The notes below the pieces were generated by a model that saw only the letters and a program-made list of their open reading frames with translations, was not told where the DNA came from and did not search any database. Of a stretch of DNA of 64,000 nucleotides, positions 50,732 to 62,827 are shown piece by piece. The stretch's first letter is position 1. Every line of letters starts with the position of its first letter. The position numbers and the translations under genes were made by a program. Source of the stretch: Rhodovulum euryhalinum (GTDB lineage: Bacteria; Pseudomonadota; Alphaproteobacteria; Rhodobacterales; Rhodobacteraceae). The DNA lies in the NCBI RefSeq assembly GCF_004342445.1, contig NZ_SLWW01000001.1, positions 186,001-250,000 on the forward strand, in the 5' to 3' direction.

Positions 50732-51742
50732 ATGAAGATCGTCCGGACCGACCGCGAGTTGCAGATGCCGCTGGTGGATGCCCGGCTGGTCGAGATGGGG
50801 CACGACCTGGTGTTGCTGCCCGACGGGATCGCCGAGGCGGACCTTGCCGCGGCGGTGGCCGGCGCGGACATCCTGCTGATGTGCTACACCCCCGTCACAC
50901 GGGCCGTGATAGAGGCCGCGCCGCACCTGCGCGGCATCGTGAAATACGGCGTGGGCATCGACGCGATCGACATTCCCGCCGCGATGGAACGGGGCGTGGC
51001 CGTGGTCAACATTCCCGAATACGCCGAGGAAACGGTTGCCGAGGGCGCCTTTGCACTGATGATCGCGCTGGCGAAACGGCTGCCCGCGCTGGGCGACCAG
51101 ATGGCGCGAACCGGCTGGGCCTGGCCAGAGCCGCAGTGGCTTGGCCGCGATATCGCAGGGGCGACGGTCGGCATTGTCGGGCTGGGCCGGATCGGCCAGT
51201 CGATGGCACGGATGGCGGGCGCGGGATTCCGGGCGCGGGTGATCGCCTACGATCCGAACGTGGACGCCGGAACGATGCGCGCGGCGGGAGCCGAGAAGAT
51301 GGACGGCCTGCACGCGCTGCTGGCGCAGTCCGACTACGTGACGCTGCACGCGACGCTGACGCCCGCGACCCGCCACATGATCGGCGCGACGGAATTCGCG
51401 GCGATGAAACCCGGCGCGGTGCTGATAAACACCTCCCGCGGCGCATTGGTGGACGAGGCGGCCCTGATCGCCGCGCTGGACAAGGGGCAACTCGGCGGCG
51501 CCGGGCTGGACGTGTTCGGCGCCGAACCCCTCGCGCTGGAGGGCCACCCCCTCAGCCCGCTCTTCGGCCGGCCGAACGTCATCCTCACGCCGCACCTGAC
51601 ATTCTACACCGAACAGGCGATGGCGCGGCTGGAGCGTGAAACGCTGGACCGCTGCCTGGAACTGATCGAGGGCCGCCCGGTCACGGTGAAATCCCGCGAC
51701 CCGCGCCTGCGCGCCCAGCGCCGCGGCGTCATCTTCGCCTGA
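50732..51742 (+). CDS. D-2-hydroxyacid dehydrogenase
   Basis: An NAD(P)-dependent 2-hydroxyacid dehydrogenase of 336 residues. The Rossmann motif GIVGLGRIGQSMAR is at 147-160 and the catalytic triad is R236 (NTSRG), E265 (FGAEP) and H288 (TPHL). Likely substrates are glyoxylate/hydroxypyruvate or a related 2-keto acid. It starts 93 bases after choV and may share its transcript. Given the nearby glyoxylate enzymes a glyoxylate reductase role is attractive, though phosphoglycerate or formate dehydrogenase relatives cannot be excluded. Confidence 0.82.
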   Translation: MKIVRTDRELQMPLVDARLVEMGHDLVLLPDGIAEADLAAAVAGADILLMCYTPVTRAVIEAAPHLRGIVKYGVGIDAIDIPAAMERGVAVVNIPEYAEETVAEGAFALMIALAKRLPALGDQMARTGWAWPEPQWLGRDIAGATVGIVGLGRIGQSMARMAGAGFRARVIAYDPNVDAGTMRAAGAEKMDGLHALLAQSDYVTLHATLTPATRHMIGATEFAAMKPGAVLINTSRGALVDEAALIAALDKGQLGGAGLDVFGAEPLALEGHPLSPLFGRPNVILTPHLTFYTEQAMARLERETLDRCLELIEGRPVTVKSRDPRLRAQRRGVIFA

Positions 51743-51908
51743 GGACCTATCCAGCATTGCCCAAAATTTTGCATTTCGCAACATGCTTGAGGGGCATATT
51801 ATTCACTGAAACGGTTTAACGCCGGTCAACCTCGTGCGTTCGCATTGGTGCGAGCAGTCACGCCGCGGCCAACAGGGCGAGTCGTCGCTTTCAGCTAGGT
51901 ATGGAATA

Positions 51909-53051
51909 ATGTTTCGCTTTACGATATCGTACACAATTGTTGCACTGGGGTTCATCCTCTTCTCGGCAGTAGGCGCACTTTCCGCAGACATCGAACTGAT
52001 CCGCGGTGGTCCCGCTGACCGTTCGTTCATCGTCGTCAGCGGGGAAATCTTACCCGGCGATGACGAAAAATTCCATGACGCGGCGGGCAATCTTGAGACC
52101 GCGACTGTCATTCTCGAGTCTCCCGGCGGCAATGTCGAGGCGGGCCTCTCGATCGCGGCCGAGACCCGGATGAGGAAATTCTCTACGCTAGTCACCGGCA
52201 ATGGCGGCTGCTTTTCGATTTGCGCCGTCGTATGGGTATCCGGTACCGGGCGTGCCATGACGACGGATGCGAAGATCGGCGTCCATGCCGCCTATAGCCC
52301 GCAAGCCATTGATGGCCTCGGCCCCCTGATGCTTGAATCCGGCATGGCCAACGCCGATATCGGCGCCTTCCTGAATTCAATTGGATTGAGCCGCAAGGCG
52401 ATCAGGTATTTCACCGCGGCGGGACCGGGCGAGATCAACCCGGTAACGCCGGAGATCGCGCAGGTCCTCGACATCGACGTGGCTCTTATCACGGCGAATG
52501 CCGTCATCACGCCGGCGCAGAGACCGACTCCCCGTCGCATTGCCCACCAAGCGGCACGAATATCCGCGTTTGGAAATCTTTGCGCAGGTCTTTTCGACCT
52601 CGACCCCGGCTCTTTGCACAAACGCGCTATCCAGGTTCTCGAAAATGGCCATGATCTTTTTGGCGGCGAAATCTTCGTGGAGTCGTTGCCGCTCATCAGT
52701 GATGCGGAGAAGCGCAGGCTATCGGAGATCGGAACTATGTCCTATTGCCTTGAGACAGAATATACGTTGCGCGATGAAGGATTCACTACCGAGGTGGCGG
52801 GTCCAAGCTTCGACTGCAGAAAAGCGGTCAGTCTCACGGAATACACGATTTGCAGCTCACGGGATCTCTGGGCACTGGATCGAGCAACGGCACATCTATA
52901 CTTTCTCTTGCGCGCGAGCTACGATCGTCAGAACCGCGCTATCCTCCTCAAATCGCAGCGCGCCTGGATCGTCGAGCGCGATAACTGCGGGCGCGATATC
53001 TCGTGCCTCTATACTCGCTACCTCGATCGCATCGCAGATTTCGGATTCTGA
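51909..53051 (+). CDS. Predicted exported ClpP-fold protease with LprI-like C-terminal domain
   Basis: A 380-residue protein of no firm family name. A Sec signal (1-25) is followed by a ClpP/crotonase-like domain (about 28-190): the SPGG strand-loop at 71-74, a nucleophile-like S103 in GGCFSICAVV (bracketed by C101 and C105) and a His in KIGVHAAY (H126). The C-terminal 80 residues (299-380) resemble the LprI/DUF1311 lysozyme-inhibitor domain, with FDCRKAVSLTEYTIC, a W in SQRAWIVERDNC and four cysteines (C303, C315, C360, C366). GC content and codon use are visibly lower than in all neighbours, suggesting recent acquisition. It probably acts in the periplasm. Confidence 0.75.
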   Translation: MFRFTISYTIVALGFILFSAVGALSADIELIRGGPADRSFIVVSGEILPGDDEKFHDAAGNLETATVILESPGGNVEAGLSIAAETRMRKFSTLVTGNGGCFSICAVVWVSGTGRAMTTDAKIGVHAAYSPQAIDGLGPLMLESGMANADIGAFLNSIGLSRKAIRYFTAAGPGEINPVTPEIAQVLDIDVALITANAVITPAQRPTPRRIAHQAARISAFGNLCAGLFDLDPGSLHKRAIQVLENGHDLFGGEIFVESLPLISDAEKRRLSEIGTMSYCLETEYTLRDEGFTTEVAGPSFDCRKAVSLTEYTICSSRDLWALDRATAHLYFLLRASYDRQNRAILLKSQRAWIVERDNCGRDISCLYTRYLDRIADFGF

Positions 53052-53052
53052 T

Positions 53053-55062
53053 CTAGCGCAACCGCCAGGCCTGGGTGCGCCTGAGAAGCCCGCGCGAGGC
53101 CGCCGCATGCAGCATGCGAGCCGCGGCATTGGTATAGAAGATCATCATCCCCATTGCCGCCGCCGGCGCCACGTCGCCCGCATCGTCCATGTTCAGCACC
53201 GCCACCGAGGCCAGCGCGGTATGCGTCGAGTAGAGGAACACCACCGCCGAGACCGTCGTCATCGCGTTGACGAACAGGTAGATCGAGATATCCAGGATCG
53301 ACGGCAGGCATACGGGCACCGTGACCCGCGCGAAAAGCCGCCAGAACGGCGCGCGCAGCGAACTGGCCACCGGCTCGAACTCGGCGTCGATCTGCTTCAG
53401 CGCGGTCAGCGCGGTCAGGTGGCCGACCGTGTAGAAATGCGTCACCGTCGAGATCACGAGGATCGCCATGGTGCCATAGACGAAGTTCAGCGGATTCTCG
53501 GGATCGTTGAAGAAGAAGATGTAGGCCAGCCCCAGCACCATCCCCGGGATCGCCATCGGCAGCATGGCAAGGAACTGGAAGCCTGCGCGCCCAAGGCGAA
53601 AGCCGTCGATCTTCTCGACCACATAGGCGCCGGTGAAAACGATGACCGTGCCAACCACCGCCGTCAGCGCCGCCATCCGCAGCGAATTGAAATAGGCCGC
53701 CCAGCCGCCGCCATCCATCCGGTCGAATTCGTAGTTCCTGAGGCTGAAGCTGAGGTCATAGGGCCAGAACTTTACCAGCGCGGCGAACTGGCAGATCCCG
53801 ATGATGCCGACGATGAACAGCGCGACCAGCGAACACCAGCCCAGCATGGCCATGTCGAAGCGCCGGTTCGGCCTGGGCTGGTAGGGAACCGAGCGCGCCG
53901 ACAAGAGCGAGACCTGCTTCTTCTGCACGATGCGGTCGACCGCAAAGGCGATCACGGCTGGGATCAGCAGCACCACCGAGACCACCGCCCCCATCTCGAA
54001 GTTCTGCTGGCCGATCACCTGCTTGTAGATGTCGATTGCCAGAACGTTGTATTGCCCGCCGATCACCTTGGGCAGGCCGAAATCGGTGATGACCAGGGTA
54101 AAGGTCACGAAGGCGGCCGAGATCAGCCCATAGCGCGCACTCGGGATCGTCACCGTCCAGAACGTCCGCCATTTCGAGGCCCGCAGCGATTCCGCCGCCT
54201 CGTATTGGCGCTGGTCGGAAATCGACAGCGCGGTGGAAATGATGATCAGGGCGTGCGGAAAGGTGAAGAAGATCGAACCGATCACGATGCCCAGCGGCCC
54301 ATAGATCGACTGGCCCATCAGCAGGGATTTCAACAGTCCCTGGTTGCCGAACAGATAGATCAGTGCGATGCCCGGCAACAGCGACGGCACCAGGATCGGC
54401 ATCATCGCGATCAGCCGGAACGCGCCCTTGAACTGCATGCAGCTTCGGTTCAGCGCATAGGCAAAGCCGAAGGCCGCCGTGACCGTCAGGACGGTGGAAA
54501 CCGTTGCTATGAACACCGAGTTGCCGATGGAGGACAGCAGCGTGGGGTTGGTGAAATAGGCGCGATAGTTCTGCAAGCCCGCCGTCGCGACGGGGCGCAG
54601 GTTCACCCGGCGAAAGGTATTGCCATCGAATTCGCGCCACTCGGTGGAATTCTGAAGGTCGAGGCCGACCAGATAGGGCGCATCCGCCACCGTGCCGCGC
54701 AGGCGGTACTTGACCGGGCTGCGAAAGCTGAACTCGGGAAAGAACCCGGTGACGGCAAGCCGCCCGTTGGTGCTGGTCCTCAGGTCATCGGGATCGAAAA
54801 GGTCCAGCCGGGCGTTCAGGTCGGCGGCACTGACAGGATCGGACCAGATCGTGCCGGTCTCGTCGCTGACCTGGAATTCATAGCGCGTCAGGTCGAAGCT
54901 GTAGGTGACGAAGCTTTTCGACAGCATCGCGTAAAGCGGCAGCGCCAGCGCGGCGAAAAGATAGGCGGCGATCACCAGCATCAGGCCGCGCTTGATGACA
55001 CCGTCGCGGTCAAGCTTCAGGCGGGTGGTCCGGCCCGGCGGCAGGGTCGCGGCGTCGGTCAC
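53053..55062 (-). CDS. aepW: 2-Aminoethylphosphonate ABC transporter permease AepW (fused double permease)
   Basis: A 669-residue permease with two binding-protein-dependent permease halves in one chain (about 160-390 and 420-660, roughly 12 helices) and a periplasmic insert of about 130 residues between helices 1 and 2. EAA-type loops appear as EAAESLRASKWRTFWTVTIPSARYG and EPVASSLRAPFWRLFARVTVPV. Iron(III)/AEP-type importers share this layout. It starts at a GTG overlapping the ATPase stop (GTGA). The AEP role follows from the phn genes upstream in the same orientation. The 3' end lies one base from the convergent low-GC gene. Confidence 0.85.
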   Translation of the reverse strand: MTDAATLPPGRTTRLKLDRDGVIKRGLMLVIAAYLFAALALPLYAMLSKSFVTYSFDLTRYEFQVSDETGTIWSDPVSAADLNARLDLFDPDDLRTSTNGRLAVTGFFPEFSFRSPVKYRLRGTVADAPYLVGLDLQNSTEWREFDGNTFRRVNLRPVATAGLQNYRAYFTNPTLLSSIGNSVFIATVSTVLTVTAAFGFAYALNRSCMQFKGAFRLIAMMPILVPSLLPGIALIYLFGNQGLLKSLLMGQSIYGPLGIVIGSIFFTFPHALIIISTALSISDQRQYEAAESLRASKWRTFWTVTIPSARYGLISAAFVTFTLVITDFGLPKVIGGQYNVLAIDIYKQVIGQQNFEMGAVVSVVLLIPAVIAFAVDRIVQKKQVSLLSARSVPYQPRPNRRFDMAMLGWCSLVALFIVGIIGICQFAALVKFWPYDLSFSLRNYEFDRMDGGGWAAYFNSLRMAALTAVVGTVIVFTGAYVVEKIDGFRLGRAGFQFLAMLPMAIPGMVLGLAYIFFFNDPENPLNFVYGTMAILVISTVTHFYTVGHLTALTALKQIDAEFEPVASSLRAPFWRLFARVTVPVCLPSILDISIYLFVNAMTTVSAVVFLYSTHTALASVAVLNMDDAGDVAPAAAMGMMIFYTNAAARMLHAAASRGLLRRTQAWRLR

Positions 55063-56189
55063 GCCACGCCCTCGCGCGGGAAGACGAGCAGCCGCTCGGG
55101 CGGAATCTCGACGGTCATCCGCGTGCCCGAGGCAAGCCCGAAGCGGCGCACCGCGTTGATCGAGAAATTGGCCACCAGCGGCGTGTTCGCGAACTCGGGG
55201 TTGTTCAGATGCGCGCGCCAATACGACCCGAGAAACTCCATGTCGGCGATGTCCACGGGCAGTTGGTTGGGTTTCATCTCGGCCTCGTAGCCCACCGCAT
55301 GCGGCAGCACGTCCTCGGGCCGGACGACCATCACCACGGCCTGCCCGTCCCGCAGCCCGTGGGTTTCGGTCTGCAACACCGCATGGCCCACCCTGACCGC
55401 GCCGCCGGTATGGGTCGTCTCGATCCGGTTCGTCTCGCCGATGAAATCAGCGACGAACAGTGTCGCCGGATGGCGGTAGATTTCCGTCGGCGTGCCGACC
55501 TGTTCGATCACGCCCTGATTCATCACCGCAATCCGGTCGGCCATCGACAGCGCCTCTTCCTGGTCGTGGGTGACCATGATCGTGGTCACCCCGAGCTTGC
55601 GCTGAAGCTCCTTGATCTCGTGGCGCAGATGGACGCGGACCTTGGCATCAAGCGCCGACAGCGGTTCGTCCAGCAGCAGAAGGCCGGGATTGATCGCGAT
55701 TGCGCGGGCCAGGGCGATGCGCTGCTGCTGGCCGCCCGACAACTGCGCGGGATACTTGTCGGCCTGCTCGGGAAGACCCACCAGATCAAGCAGTTCATCG
55801 ACGCGCGCCGAGATCTCGGCCCGGGGCCGTCGCGTGTTCTCCAGCCCGAAGGCGATGTTCTTTGCGATCGTCAGGTTCGGGAACAGCGCGTAGGACTGGA
55901 ACACGATGCCGTAATCGCGTTGCGACGCGGGCATGTCCGAGATGTCGCGCCCGCCCTGGCGGATCGTGCCCCGGCTTTGCGGATCCAGTCCGGCAACGGC
56001 GCGCAAAAGCGTTGTCTTGCCACAGCCCGACGGGCCGAGAAAACAGATGAACTCGCCTCTCTCGATGTCGAGGGAAACGTCGCGCAGCGCCACGAAGTCG
56101 CCGAACGCCTTCCAGACGTTCTCTATCCTCAGATAAGGCTCGGCGATACCGGTCGCGGCGCGCAAGCCTTCTGCGTCCAGGGCTGTCAT
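55059..56189 (-). CDS. aepV: 2-Aminoethylphosphonate ABC transporter ATPase AepV
   Basis: A 376-residue ATPase: Walker A GPSGCGKTT (about 52-60), VFQSYALFPNLT Q-loop, signature LSGGQQQRIA (about 149-158), Walker B LLLLDEPLSALD and H-loop THDQEEA; a TOBE-type C-terminal region follows. The start at 56189 (MTALDAEGLRAAT) is in the best agreement with the context; an in-frame upstream codon lies in the intergenic hairpin region. It energises AepW. Confidence 0.86.
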   Translation of the reverse strand: MTALDAEGLRAATGIAEPYLRIENVWKAFGDFVALRDVSLDIERGEFICFLGPSGCGKTTLLRAVAGLDPQSRGTIRQGGRDISDMPASQRDYGIVFQSYALFPNLTIAKNIAFGLENTRRPRAEISARVDELLDLVGLPEQADKYPAQLSGGQQQRIALARAIAINPGLLLLDEPLSALDAKVRVHLRHEIKELQRKLGVTTIMVTHDQEEALSMADRIAVMNQGVIEQVGTPTEIYRHPATLFVADFIGETNRIETTHTGGAVRVGHAVLQTETHGLRDGQAVVMVVRPEDVLPHAVGYEAEMKPNQLPVDIADMEFLGSYWRAHLNNPEFANTPLVANFSINAVRRFGLASGTRMTVEIPPERLLVFPREGVA

Positions 56190-56236
56190 GGGCGTATTCC
56201 GTGGGCTGGCCGGGTCGGGAATGGCGGACTGGCGAA

Positions 56237-56263
56237 CCGGGGGCACGCAGCGCGCGCCCCCGG
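56237..56263 (-). terminator. Intercistronic hairpin between aepX and aepV
   Basis: An 8-bp GC stem (CCGGGGGC at 56237-56244 with GCCCCCGG at 56256-56263) sits 11 bases after aepX, without a T-run. As with choX, it may stabilise the binding-protein message or attenuate the downstream genes. Confidence 0.55.
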
Positions 56264-56274
56264 CGGAACCGGGA

Positions 56275-57294
56275 TCAGCCCTTGGGTTCGGACTTGGTAT
56301 CGTAGCGCTTCGTCCACTCTGCCAGGATCGCGTCGCGGTTGTTCGCGGCCCATTCGAAGTCGTTGTCGATCATCTTCTCGGGAATGTTCGGCGGGAAGTG
56401 CTCGACCGGCTTGGCAATGCCGGGAATGGCCACGACGGCATAGCCGACGTTGTACATCTCCATCGCCTTGGGCGTGATCGACCAGTCGACCAGCGTCTGC
56501 GCGGCTTCGAGATTGTCGGTGCCGGCGACGATCGCGGTCGATTCCATGTCCCAGCCAATGCCTTCCTCGGGGATGATGATCTCGATCGGCGCGCCCTCGG
56601 CCTTGGACTTGGCGCCACGGAAGGCGAAAGAGACACCGATCACGGTTTCACCCGCGGCCGCCATCTTGCAGGGCTTGGACCCCGAATGGGTATAGGCGCC
56701 GATGTTCTCGTGCAGCGCGTCCATGTAGGCCCAGCCCTGCTCTTCGCCGAAGAGTTGCAGCCAGCTCGACACATCCAGGAAGCCGGTGCCCGACGAGGCG
56801 GGGTTCGGCATCACCACGTGGCCCTTGTATTCGGGCTTGGTCAGGTCCTGCCAGCTCGTGGGCGCGGTCAGGCCCAGCTTGTCGCCCTCGACGGTGTTGT
56901 AGCAGATCGCCGCCACCCACGCGTCCATGCCGACCCACGAAGGGGGCGTGTCGCTGTCGCGGAACTTGGGGTCCAGCGCGTCCAGCCCGGCAGGGGTGTA
57001 GGGTTCCAGCATGTCCTCGCTCTTGAGCACCAGAAGCGAGGTCGCGGCGAGGCCCCAGATCACGTCGGCCTGAGGGTTGTTCTTTTCCGCCAGCAGCTTG
57101 GCTGTGACGACGCCGGTGGAATCGCGAACCCAGTTGATCTTGATGTCCGGGTGGTCCTGGTTGAAGGTCTCGGCGTAGCGGGCCAGATCCTCGGCCTCGA
57201 CGGCGGTATAGACCGTCAGTTCGGTCTCGGCCAGAGCGGCCGAGCCCAGGGCGATTGCGGCAAGGCCCATCGCGAACGGTTTGATCTTGGTCAT
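56275..57294 (-). CDS. aepX: 2-Aminoethylphosphonate-binding protein AepX
   Basis: A 339-residue periplasmic binding protein with a Sec signal cleaved after about ALA (residue 22). The mature part starts ETELTVYTAVEAEDLARYAE, a pattern of the Fbp/AEP-binding family. Further family segments are WVRDSTGVVTAKLLAEKNNPQADVIWG (about 55-81, broken here by DST, where the phosphonate group is expected to bind) and VVMPNPASSGTGFLD. It feeds AepWV. It is separated from the PbfA-like gene by 258 bases with a dyad, so it may have its own promoter. Confidence 0.87.
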   Translation of the reverse strand: MTKIKPFAMGLAAIALGSAALAETELTVYTAVEAEDLARYAETFNQDHPDIKINWVRDSTGVVTAKLLAEKNNPQADVIWGLAATSLLVLKSEDMLEPYTPAGLDALDPKFRDSDTPPSWVGMDAWVAAICYNTVEGDKLGLTAPTSWQDLTKPEYKGHVVMPNPASSGTGFLDVSSWLQLFGEEQGWAYMDALHENIGAYTHSGSKPCKMAAAGETVIGVSFAFRGAKSKAEGAPIEIIIPEEGIGWDMESTAIVAGTDNLEAAQTLVDWSITPKAMEMYNVGYAVVAIPGIAKPVEHFPPNIPEKMIDNDFEWAANNRDAILAEWTKRYDTKSEPKG

Positions 57295-57438
57295 GTCTTT
57301 ACCCCTGGTCTGGATTTTATCGTTCAGCCGGTCAGCACCCGAACGGGCGCCGGGTAACGCTGGACGGACGTTGCCGTCGGTAATGGTCCTTGATGACGTT
57401 CTTGTGTCAAAGCCCTATCGATCGCAGGCCCATTCCCA

Positions 57439-57451
57439 CCGAAAGTTTCGG
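57439..57451. promoter_or_regulatory. Palindrome upstream of aepX
   Basis: CCGAAAGTTTCGG is a perfect 6-1-6 inverted repeat 145 bases before aepX in the 258-base gap after the PbfA-like gene. TTGACA on the minus strand (57410-57405) could be a -35 between it and aepX, though the matching -10 is weak. A regulated internal promoter is plausible. Confidence 0.45.
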
Positions 57452-57552
57452 AACTCCGGTCTGATAAGTAAAATCTATTTCCCTTATGAAACGGAAAGCA
57501 ACCGCGATGGACGGTTTGGGCATGTCCTGGCCGCGCGATCGCGCCGCGGTGC

Positions 57553-58908
57553 CTAGTTTTCCGCCAGAACCGCGGCGGCCACGATACCCAGCGCCCGGTC
57601 GAGGTCGTCCTGCGGAATCGTCAGCGGCGGCGACAGCGTCAGAACCGAACCCGCGCTGATCTTGAAGCTGAGACCCGCCGCGAGGCAGCGGTAATAGATG
57701 CGCTCGGCCCGCGCCTTGTCGGGGGTGCGGGCCTCGCGGTCGGTGACGATCTCGACCCCGAACATCAGGCCCCGCCCCCGGATGTCGCCCACATGCGGGC
57801 TGCCCGCCAGCGTCTCGCCAAGCCGCTCCAACGCATGCGCGCCCAGTTCCGCCGAGCGGTCCACCAGCCCCTCGTCGCGGATGATCTCCAGCGTGGTCAG
57901 CGCGGCGCGCGCGGTCACCGGGTTCTTCTCGTGGGTGTAATGCCCGATGGCGAAGTCGCCGCAGACATCCAGGTCGTGCCGCGCCACCACCGCCGCGACG
58001 GGCAGCACGCCGCCCCCCAGCGCCTTGCCCAGCGTCACGATGTCGGGCACCACGCCGTCATGTTCGAAGGCGAACATCCGGCCGGTCTTGCCCAGCCCGG
58101 TGGGGATCTCGTCCAGGATCAACAGCGCCCCGTGCCGGTCGCAGGCCGCCCTGACCGCCTGCCAGAACCCCGGCGGCGGCACCACCGGCACCGCGCGCAT
58201 CGGTTCCGCGATCACCGCGGCCACGTCGCCTTCGCGTTCCAGCACGAACTCCACCATCTTCGCGCAGGCCAGCCCGCAGGTCTCGGGCCCCGGGTGGCCA
58301 TAGGCGCAGCGGTAACAGTTGAAGGGCGCGACATGCTCCGCGCCGGGCAGCAGCGGCCCGGCGATGTGGCTGCGGAACGTCGCCTCACCGCCCACCGACG
58401 ACGCCCCGAACCCCGCGCCGTGGAACGCGTCCCAGAAGCTGACGGTCTTGAACCGCCCCGTGGCGGCGCGGGCGATGCGCAGCGCCACCTCGTTGGCGTC
58501 CGACCCGCCCGTGGTGAACAGCACCTTCGACAGGTCGCCCGGCGCAAGCGCCCCCAGCGTCTCGGCCAGTTCCACCGCCACCTCGTTGGTGAACCGGCGG
58601 GGCGAGAAACTCAACTGATCCAGCTGGTCCTTGATCGCCGCCACCAGCCGCGGGTGGCCATAGCCGATGTGGTGCACCGAATTGCCGTGGAAATCCATGT
58701 AGCGCCGGCCGGCGGTGTCCTCGATCCAGATGCCCTCGGCCTTGGCGATGGTCGACACGCAGGGCGAGGACAGCGACTGGTGCAGGAAGGCGTCGGCATC
58801 GCGGGCCAGCAGGCCGCGCGTCGCCGCATCCGGGTGCCTCGCCGCCCAGGCCCGCCGCGCCTCGGACGTGTTCGATTCCCCCTCGGTATGGGTGATCGGC
58901 CCGGTCAT
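57553..58908 (-). CDS. pbfA: Class III PLP enzyme, probable (R)-1-hydroxy-2-aminoethylphosphonate ammonia-lyase
   Basis: A 451-residue fold-type I PLP enzyme of the class III aminotransferase family. The PLP lysine is K295 in LGKALGGG and the cofactor Asp is D266 in ILDEIPTG. It is fused into the phosphonate operon: its ATG overlaps the phnY stop, and aepX follows. PbfA lyases found in such operons convert hydroxylated AEP to phosphonoacetaldehyde and ammonia, joining the PhnW-PhnY-PhnA route. Sequence alone cannot separate this from a transaminase, so the PbfA call rests on context. Cysteines in [20 protein letters not shown] (about 197-215) are an unusual cluster. Confidence 0.75.
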
Positions 58909-60350
58909 CCCCGCGGCCAGGGCAGCGAGTAGGTCTTGACGTTGGTGAAGAACTTCATCGCCTCCATCACCCCCTCCTTCACCCCGTTGCCGGAATCCTT
59001 GATGCCCCCGAAGGGCGACATCTCGATCCGGTAGCCGGGCTGTTCCCAGATGTTCACGGTGCCCACGTTCAGCCCCGCGATGAAGGCCTGCATCCGGCGG
59101 AAATCGTTGGTGCAGACGCCCGAAGACAGCCCGAACGGCGTGGAGTTCGAAATCCGCATCACCTCGGCATCGTCGTTAGGCACCCGCACGATGGGCACGA
59201 TGGGGCCAAAGGTCTCCTCCATCACCAACTCGCTGTCATGCGGAACCCGGTCCACCGTGATCGGCGGCAGCAGCGCCCCCTGCCGGCCGGGGTGATAGAG
59301 GATCTCGGCCCCGCGTGCCTCGGCGTCGTGGACGCGACGCTCGAAAAGCTCGGCGGCTTGAGCCGAGATCACGCAGCCAAGCTCCGTCGCCGGGTCCATC
59401 GGATCGCCGAAGCGGATCGCGCGCGCCCGCTCCAGCACCATCGGCACGAAGGCGTCGGCCACGCTCTCCTGCACGAGGATGCGCTTGACGGCGGTGCAGC
59501 GCTGGCCGGAATTGCCCGTGGCGCCGGCCACCGCGATCTGCGCCGCCTTCGCAAGGTCCGCCTCGTCCAGATCGTTCAGCACGATCAGCGGATCGTTGCC
59601 GCCGAGTTCCAGCGCCTGCCGCTTGTAGACCGCCTTGGCCGCGATCATCTTGCCCACCGGCACGCCGCCGGTAAAGGTCACGATGTCGATGTTTTCATTG
59701 GCGATCATCTCGTCGCCGATGTCCTTGGGCCAGCCGGTGACCACCTGGAACATCTCGGGCGGCAGCCCCGCGTCATACAGGATGTCGGCCAGCGCGATGG
59801 CGGTCAGCGGCGTCAGTTCGGTCGGCTTGCAGACCACGCAGTTGTTCGTCGCGATGGCGGGCGCGACCTTGTGCGCCACCATGTTCAGCGGGTGGTTGAA
59901 CGGCGTGATCGCGCTGATCGCGCGGACCGGCTCGCGCATGGTGTAGATGCGCCGGTCCTTGCCGTTGGGCGTCAGGTCGCAGGAAAAGATCTGCCCGTCA
60001 TCCATCAGCGCCAGTTGGCCCGCAAAGGTGAACACGTCGCAGGCCCGGCCGGTTTCATAAAGCGCGTGCTGCCAGCAGATGCCCAGTTCCAGCACCAGCC
60101 CCCGCGCCAGCGCCTCGCGCCGCTCGCGGATCAGCTCGGCCGCGCGGGACAGGACCTGCTGGCGCTCGTAGCGCGTCAGCCGCGCGGTATAGTCCCCCGC
60201 GATCTGGAACGCGCGCCGGGCGTGCTCGGCCCGGCCCGCGGGCACGGTGCCGATCACCTCGTCGGTATAGGGATAGCGGACCTCGATCACCTCGTCGGTG
60301 AACACGGCCTCGCCGCCGATCCGCATGCCCTCGTGCCGGATGTCCGCCAT
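58905..60350 (-). CDS. phnY: Phosphonoacetaldehyde dehydrogenase PhnY
   Basis: An aldehyde dehydrogenase of 481 residues that oxidises phosphonoacetaldehyde to phosphonoacetate with NAD. Catalytic residues are C285 in SGQRCTAV, E248 in ALELGGND and N152 in TPFNHPLN. It lies between phnA and the PbfA-like gene, in agreement with the three-step PhnW-PhnY-PhnA pathway of Sinorhizobium. General non-phosphonate aldehyde dehydrogenases look similar; the operon decides the call. Confidence 0.88.
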
Positions 60351-60360
60351 CCCCGCCCCC

Positions 60361-61611
60361 TTACAGCGCCGCCGCCATGCAGGCGTAGTGGAACGCGTCG
60401 AAGTTCCTGAGTTCCGGCGCGTTGGGCAGGTCGAGCCTGCGGTTGACGATGAACGGCACCTCCTGTTCGGTCAGCCCGCCATGGCTGCGCAGCGGCTCCT
60501 TCAGCGCCGCCAGGTCGTGGCGGTGGGCCGAGGTGCCGATGGTCATGTTTTCCCCGGAAATCATCACGATATCGCCGATCCGGTCGGCGGGCAGCTCGAA
60601 CCGGCGCACCGCCTCGTCGCGGTCCACGACGCAGATCAGGTCCGGCAGCGCGGCGAGGCGGGCCATGATCCCGGCCCGGTCCGCGCCCTCGGGCAGATAC
60701 GCGGTGGCGAACCCGCCCAGTGCGCCGTGGTGCACCACGTACGGGTCGGTGATCGGCAGGATCACCCGCGCCGCGCCCGCGCCCAGCCAGCCGTCCAGCA
60801 GGTCCTGGACATAGATCACCGCCGGGCTGCCATCGGCCTTGTGCTTGGGCTTCATGCCGTGATCGGCGGTCAGCACCACCGCCGCCCCGCCCGCGTCCAG
60901 CGCCCCCAGGTAGCGGTCCACCATCGCGTGGAAGTCCAGCGCCCCCTGCTCCTCGGGGGCGAACTTGTGCTGGATGTAGTCGGTGGTCGACAGGTACATC
61001 ACGTCCGGCCGCCACTCCGTCAGCAGCTTGACCCCGGCGGCGAAGACGAATTCCGAGAGATCCCCGGAATAGACCTCGGGCACCGGCCGGCCCAGCCAGC
61101 GGGCGGCATCCCCGATCCCGTTCGCCGCCTCGGTCGCCTGATCCGACTTCTCGGACGAAAAGCAGATCGCGCGGCCCTCGTCGAATTTCAGCCCCGCGCC
61201 CAGCAGCGCCCGCAGCTTGTCCTTGGCGGTCACCACCGCCACCCGGGCGCCCGCGTCGAAAAACGCCTGAAAGATCGTCGGCGCCCGCAGGAAGCGGACG
61301 TCGTTCATCATCACCTCCTGGCCGGTCTCGGGCTCGAAAAGGTAGTTGCCGCAGATGCCGTGCACGGCGGGCGGGCGGCCCGTGGCGATCGACAGGTTGT
61401 TGGGGTTGGTGAAGGACGGGATCACCGAATGGGCGCGGCGTTCCGTGCCCGTCGCGCGGATGCGGGCGAGGTTCGGCATCAGCCCCCGCTCGATCGCCAC
61501 CTCCAGGTAGCCCGGTTCGCAACCGTCGAGGCAGATCGCCACCGCGGGCACCTTCGGCCAGGCATAGGTCCGGCCGTTCGCCGTCACGGGGGCGCGGGTC
61601 GTCATGTCCAT
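60361..61611 (-). CDS. phnA: Phosphonoacetate hydrolase PhnA
   Basis: A 416-residue alkaline-phosphatase-superfamily hydrolase that splits the C-P bond of phosphonoacetate to acetate and phosphate. The nucleophile Thr is expected in [17 protein letters not shown] (about 62-78). Metal ligands fit D29 in CLDGCEP, the D-H of [10 protein letters not shown] (about 210-219), [11 protein letters not shown] (about 249-259) and the late His in GTSAHRHD. Two Zn ions are typical. The start at 61611 has AAGGAA seven bases upstream. It is second in the operon, 28 bases after phnW. Confidence 0.9.
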
Positions 61612-61639
61612 CACAGGTTCCTTGTTCGTCGGGCCGCGC

Positions 61640-62827
61640 TCAGGCGGCAAGTTTCGCGCGTTCGGCCAGCGCCGCCGCGGGGGGTGCCGCACTTTCCACG
61701 CCCATCTCGGCCAGCGCATCGGCGGCGGCCTGAACCACGCGGGCCATGACGTGCTCATCCATCCGCCCGATCACGCCGATGCGGAAGCTGTCCACCACCG
61801 TCAGCTTGCCGGGATAGATGATGAACCCACGGGCCTTCATCAGGTCGTAGAAGGTCTGGAACACGAAGGCTGGATCGGCCGGGCAGAAGAAGGTCACGAT
61901 GATCGGCGACAGCCACCGGTCGTCCAGCAGCGTCTCGAACCCCAGCCCGCGCATGCCGGCCACCATCACGTCGCGGTTGCGGGCATAGCGCGCGCCCCGC
62001 CCGGCCACGCCGCCCTCTGCGGCGTGGATCTCCAGCGCCTTGAGGAACGCCGCCACCGCGTGCGTGGGGGGCGTATAGCGCCACTGGCCGGTCTTTTCCA
62101 TGTAGGCCCATTGCGCGTGCAGATCGAGCGCCAGCGAGTGGCTGTTGCCCTGCGCCGCCTCCAGCGCGTCGCGGCGGGCGATCACGAAGCCGAAGCCCGG
62201 CACGCCCTCGATGCACTTGTTCGCGGAACTGACCAGCGCCGCGCAGGGAATCTCCCCGACATCCAGCGGGATCGCCCCGAAGGCCGACATCGAGTCGATC
62301 AGCAATTTCCGGCCCCGGACGTGCACCGCCTCGGCGATCTCGGCCAGCGGGTTCAGGATGCCCGACGAGGTCTCGCAATGGATCGCGACGACATGGGTGA
62401 TGGCGGGGTCGGCGTCCAGCGCCGCGGCCACCTCGGCGCCCCTCGGCGGCAGGTAGTCGCCCTTGTCGATGACCGTATGGGCCCGGCCCAGATAGCGCAG
62501 CGTCTCGGCCGCCCGCAGCCCATAGGCCCCGTTCGCCAGCACCAGCACCTTGCCGTCCTTTGGCACCAGGCTGCCCAGCATCGCCTCGACCGCGAACGAC
62601 CCCGAGCCCTGCATCGGCACGCAGGCGTACTCCCCCGCCCGGTCGCCCGCCAGCACCAGCAGCCGGTCGCAGAGCGTACGGGTCATCGCGCGGAAGTCGG
62701 AATCCCACGACCCCCAGTCGCGCAGCATGGCCTCCTTCGTGGCGAAATCGGTGGTCAGGGGGCCCGGGGTCAGAAGGAAGGGCTCGCCCAGGCGGGGGGC
62801 GGGAAGAGGCGCGGCGGGCTCGGTCAT
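61640..62827 (-). CDS. phnW: 2-Aminoethylphosphonate:pyruvate transaminase PhnW
   Basis: A 395-residue class V aminotransferase that turns AEP and pyruvate into phosphonoacetaldehyde and alanine. The N-terminal LLTPGPLTT (18-26) and the PLP lysine K204 in SSANKCIEG are typical of PhnW. It is the first gene of phnW-phnA-phnY-pbfA-aepXVW. Its class V fold is shared with BhcA, but the two are distinct in sequence. A 17-base palindrome lies 35 bases upstream. Confidence 0.9.

Follow-up and report, generated by a model that had tools for sequence, protein, structure and literature searches.

Among the described systems, the closest to the gene reported here in Rhodovulum euryhalinum are the proteases of the ClpP fold and the proteins of the LprI/DUF1311 family (PF07007). 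The gene lies in a window of 64,000 nucleotides, i.e., the whole stretch of DNA that was analysed. Its predicted product resembles ClpP (peptidase family S14; 6hwm/6hwn, 7eko) in the fold, in the SPGG loop and in a Ser starting a helix, with a His 23–25 residues after this Ser and an acidic residue in register with D171. Unlike ClpP, the window protein appears to be exported and disulfide-rich, carries a C-x-S-x-C nucleophile motif and fused C-terminal domains, and has no known ATPase partner. The stomatin-specific protease NfeD1b/1510-N and SppA (S49) likewise have a ClpP-like fold and need no ATPase for their work, which takes place outside or at the membrane; these enzymes use a Ser-Lys dyad, whereas the window protein has an invariant His at the ClpP position. 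The exported ClpP-fold proteins of phages (PHROG 30575; Agrobacterium phages Atu_ph07 and Atu_ph08) have in common with it the signal peptide, the C-x-S-x-C motif and the invariant Ser/His, but are devoid of the LprI-like tail.

The LprI/DUF1311 proteins, such as Mycobacterium tuberculosis LprI and Salmonella ScwA, share with this tail a four-cysteine, all-helical signature (SFxC...A...E..C...L...D...Y...Q..W...R..C...C...Y..R); the window tail differs in its Pfam score, which is below the cut-off, in having no MliC domain and in being joined to a ClpP fold. The LprI domain of ScwA gave no sign of lysozyme inhibition, and ScwA, which needs its disulfides, increases the amount of the lytic transglycosylase MltD; the inhibitory activity of the M. 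tuberculosis protein is ascribed to MliC, a separate domain (PMC7933661). No functional study of exported ClpP-like proteins or of COG3904 was found in the open-licence literature searched, which does not prove that none exists.

Structure and organization of the gene

The features of the locus are reported in Table 1. The likely start codon is the ATG at 51909, an alternative GTG at 51834, 75 bases upstream, being likewise open. The hydrophobic segment of the signal peptide has an 11-residue mean hydropathy of 2.6. In the region scanned for promoters, two sites were found versus 0.6 ± 0.8 expected, on consensus match only. Just one base separates the stop codon from the end of the convergent permease gene, and no convincing flanking repeats were found as insertion scars around the gene.

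Table 1. Features of the locus (positions in the window).
Feature	Position	Strand	Evidence
2-Hydroxyacid dehydrogenase gene (5' neighbour)	50732-51742	+	
Putative promoter and leader, GC 0.52	51743-51908	+	One weak sigma-70-like site, 51775-51802
Gene for an exported ClpP-fold/helical/LprI-like protein, 380 aa	51909-53051, stop codon included	+	Sole ORF of the stretch
Signal peptide, ~residues 1-25, MFRFTISYTIVALGFILFSAVGALS, without lipobox	51909-51983	+	Sequence
ClpP-fold domain, residues 26-200: SPGG (71-74), C101-x-S103-x-C105, H126, E175	51984-52508	+	Pfam, conservation, model, PDB fold search
Middle helical domain, residues 208-290, conserved C225 and C280	52530-52778	+	Alignment, model, Atu_ph07 match
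LprI-like domain, residues 297-380, C303, C315, C360, C366	52797-53048	+	Sub-threshold Pfam, homologues, cysteine conservation
2-Aminoethylphosphonate transporter permease gene (3' neighbour)	53053-55221	-	
2-Aminoethylphosphonate (AEP) uptake and degradation cluster	53053-62800		

ClpP-like domain and active site

The Pfam Clp_protease profile matched residues 65-128 with 21.6 bits (cut-off 20.2). Searches of NCBIfam and PDB by sequence yielded weak ClpP matches only; the scores for the NCBIfam ATP-dependent ClpP models (S14 equivalogs) were 11-14 bits, far from their cut-offs of 228-361, and those for the NfeD1b family (PF25145, cut-off 40 bits) reached at most 21.9. A weak NfeD1b_N match was present in six of the seven members of the alignment. 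An AlphaFold model was obtained from a deep alignment of 37 relatives, contributed by the window, by the genome loci and by viral contigs, with a pLDDT of 89.4 and a pTM of 0.82; it replaced a first model built from six sequences, whose ClpP part was poor (pLDDT 65) and whose fold search was meaningless. In the model the domain adopts a predicted ClpP/crotonase fold, and the best matches retrieved from PDB by Foldseek were ClpP structures (probability 1.00, TM by target length up to 0.69), with the stomatin-specific protease 1510-N (6m4b) also among them. The periplasmic ClpP-like domain with SPGG, S103 and H126 proposed in the sequence-only reading is thus recovered by the signal peptide, Pfam, the model, whose core is ClpP-like, the PDB fold search and conservation.

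Among 88 distinct homologues, S103 is invariant (88/88), as is H126 (87/87). E175 is located six residues ahead of a conserved Pro, in register with the catalytic Asp of ClpP, a position which we take to be that of Asp171 of E. coli ClpP, likewise six residues before a Pro; it is occupied by E or D in all the intact two-domain members and by an acidic residue in about half of the wider family. It might be supposed that the domain is a non-catalytic scaffold that oligomerises or binds a partner, the tail doing the work. The weak sequence similarity to true ClpP, the variation of the third catalytic residue in the wider family and the export of these proteins without a Clp ATPase speak for such a scaffold; however, S103 and H126 are kept at the ClpP spacing across very divergent homologues, which a scaffold would not need, and we consider this explanation rather doubtful. 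The protein is better described as a candidate exported ClpP-fold serine hydrolase. For its export, its fold and its family membership the computational support is good; we infer catalysis from these conserved residues, as a candidate activity.

The C-x-S-x-C motif (C101, C105) was found in 81 of the 88 homologues, and a crude hydropathy test revealed an upstream hydrophobic segment in 93 of 98 members with the motif versus none of the seven without it, counts that are biased since many viral members were collected by a pattern requiring C-x-S-A-C. The seven proteins without the motif resemble phage head-maturation proteases. A periplasmic disulfide at the turn that bears the nucleophile would agree with this split. 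The position of S103 between two cysteines had been correctly recognized from the sequence, but it is not unusual, as was then believed: the motif is the signature of the exported family and tracks with export, and exported C-x-S-x-C ClpP-fold proteins are common in Alphaproteobacteria and phages.

Middle domain and LprI-like tail

Between the ClpP-fold domain and the tail lies a helical domain that the sequence-only reading had not mentioned. The best viral structural match, a protein of Agrobacterium phage Atu_ph07, spans 298 alignment columns and seems to possess this domain too.

The tail scored 19.3 bits against Pfam LprI, below the gathering score of 22, and the best orthologue, scored individually, reached 21.0. 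It nevertheless carries the LprI signature, i.e., four conserved cysteines (kept in 27-30 of 29-30 sequences) plus D/Q/W/R, and by BLAST it matches LprI proteins above the Pfam cut-off, L021 and L010 (1e-10 to 1e-12), the latter being an LprI-MliC protein. Because of these matches to proteins that pass the cut-off, we accept the tail as a homologue of LprI proteins; the C-terminal four-cysteine LprI-like domain suggested earlier therefore holds in spite of the sub-threshold profile score. The same cannot be said of the lysozyme-inhibitor-like function that had been attached to it, for which no support emerged: the LprI domain of ScwA did not act as an inhibitor, and the activity of the M. tuberculosis protein is attributed to MliC, a domain absent from the window protein. 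"Lysozyme inhibitor" would be a name only, and inhibition is not expected from LprI alone.

Distribution and phylogeny

Besides the window gene, the same architecture was found at seven Hyphomicrobiales loci, two of which are degraded. A full-length relative with 39% identity is located on a Sinorhizobium medicae plasmid; the copy on pSymB of S. meliloti USDA1021 (L032:5989-7876, + strand) is frameshifted and directly followed by another C-x-S-x-C ClpP-fold gene; the others belong to a Roseibium MAG, Neorhizobium SOG26, Rhizobium ruizarguesonis, a Rhizobiales genome and Mycoplana, where the copy is truncated. Neither the 60 relatives sampled, 15 congeners included, nor a sample of 384 further genomes of the class yielded a two-domain relative, and a viral scan with the two-domain alignment retrieved no full-length viral relative. 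The combination, whose taxonomic spread had been indicated as a point to check, is rare.

In the phylogenetic tree, the eight two-domain proteins form one clade (100/78) within a group supported 100/98 that also includes the Atu_ph07 protein and several plasmid-encoded proteins of Rhizobium and Microvirga, whose tails are of the PAN, peptidoglycan-binding or other types. The sister clade of the eight bears PAN or peptidoglycan-binding tails in place of LprI; LprI, PAN, tandem peptidoglycan-binding and other tails have been swapped on related ClpP domains inside one supported clade. Members with C-x-S-x-C from the family and genus to which the window belongs branch far off in the tree. This placement agrees with a horizontal transfer from a Hyphomicrobiales-like donor.

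No gene neighbour is common to all eight loci, and none names a target; an FtsH-like gene is located 1-4 kb away at three Rhizobiaceae loci only. Among three Rhizobiaceae orthologues dN/dS is ~0.07, with dS near saturation, so that in Rhizobiaceae the protein is maintained under strong purifying selection. On the other hand, two of the eight loci are frameshifted or truncated, and therefore the gene is dispensable.

Base composition and origin

The sequence-only reading had also pointed out a lower GC content and a different codon use between the two neighbouring genes, and both were confirmed on 464 kb of the same genome. The GC content is 0.575 versus 0.680 (sd 0.034) in windows of the same size, only 0.8% of which are as low. 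Compared with 267 sampled genes of at least 200 aa, the gene has the lowest GC3 (0.666; mean 0.868, sd 0.037) and the lowest CAI-like value (0.421; mean 0.717, sd 0.063); because a simple codon score served to call the reference genes, these ranks are approximate, yet the gap is a large one. The adjoining transporter gene has a slightly low GC content (0.633) and a normal codon use. In the same genome, the start of contig 10 (G000:C10:1-20000) is likewise low in GC, down to 0.52, and phage-like.

On the basis of its composition, of its sporadic presence and of the Hyphomicrobiales kinship revealed by the tree, the gene was probably acquired horizontally from other bacteria. The AEP operon beside it is accessory too: none of the 15 congeners has a match to its permease, and plasmid-borne copies resembling the cluster occur in Aminobacter, Sinorhizobium, Shinella and Leisingera. 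The gene might be a passenger of a mobile region, with no role in its present host; the host-atypical codon use, the absence of a close copy and of the flanking operon from the 15 congeners, and the decayed copies at other loci agree with this idea. A passenger, however, would hardly explain why the frame is open and why the catalytic residues and all eight cysteines are kept at ~38% identity to the relatives, and we regard it as quite improbable.

A second fusion and phage relatives

A viral-classified, prophage-like contig, rich in transposases, encodes a 332-aa fusion of a C-x-S-x-C ClpP domain with an LprI domain, without the middle domain (L143:11438-12433, + strand). Its LprI domain scores 27.1 bits, above the Pfam cut-off, and the fusion branches elsewhere in the tree, on a long branch. 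We take it as a second, independent ClpP-LprI joining; that the two domains were brought together twice speaks for a useful pairing. No relatives of this fusion were found in plasmids, phages or viral contigs, and its search in 398 genomes of the phylum matched the ClpP part only. An integron attC site next to it was considered and discarded: a hairpin exists just upstream, where the strict core motif is missing.

In two other prophage-like contigs (L149:1212-2539 and L150:7286-8313), an exported ClpP-fold gene is located 2-3 bases behind a gene for an XRE-like-looking regulator, an adjacency that suggests expression in the lysogen and lysogenic conversion. In four phages (L124, L141, L166 and L146), the exported C-x-S-x-C ClpP-fold gene has beside it or close by another gene of the ClpP fold, which lacks these cysteines and resembles a head-maturation protease.

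The phage relatives, two of them directly behind a regulator gene, and the mobile and sporadic nature of the gene are what might be expected of a role in envelope defence or immunity, the LprI-like tail capturing an incoming lytic enzyme (a phage endolysin, a T6SS lysozyme-like effector, or the lysozyme of a predator or host) for cleavage by the ClpP domain; LprI/DUF1311 proteins, taken as immunity candidates, are also found beside WHIX effectors of the T6SS (PMC12135965). Nevertheless, none of the PADLOC models of known anti-phage proteins matched, no toxin or secretion gene adjoins the gene in the window or is common to the loci, and ScwA showed no lysozyme-inhibitor behaviour (PMC7933661); such a defence function is unlikely, even if not without arguments.

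Proposed function

We give about an even chance to the gene product being a horizontally acquired, exported, ATP-independent ClpP-fold serine peptidase, whose C-terminal modules would select an envelope- or peptidoglycan-associated target. According to this proposal, the protein would be exported by Sec and cleaved near residue 25, as its sequence indicates, and would fold with disulfides in the oxidising periplasm, where, judging from the covariation with export, the Cys pair around the nucleophile turn might fix the active-site elbow. Hydrolysis would then be carried out by S103 and H126, with E175 as the probable acid, as their invariance, the ClpP register and the secondary structure suggest. 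In place of a Clp ATPase, the helical and LprI-like modules may select the substrate, or they may keep the enzyme at a target in the envelope or associated with peptidoglycan; a specific envelope protein, e.g., a peptidoglycan-acting enzyme, might in this way be pruned or degraded. This is the least supported step of the scheme. We infer such targeting because of the tail swapping, the repeated fusion and the precedent of ScwA (PMC7933661), and an envelope role is plausible. A more far-reaching version, very improbable in our opinion, would see a mobile family of periplasmic ClpP-fold proteases with swappable tails (LprI, PAN, peptidoglycan-binding), in which the C101-C105 disulfide, bracketing the nucleophile, would be a switch, either export-dependent or redox, and the tail would guide the protease to lytic enzymes that attack the envelope.

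The gene is well delimited, and it represents a real and rare domain combination within a widespread exported ClpP-like family. Its architecture offers a testable hypothesis, i.e., that the tail may choose the substrate or the site for a periplasmic protease working without ATP, and it gives a partner context to the LprI domain, whose function is disputed.
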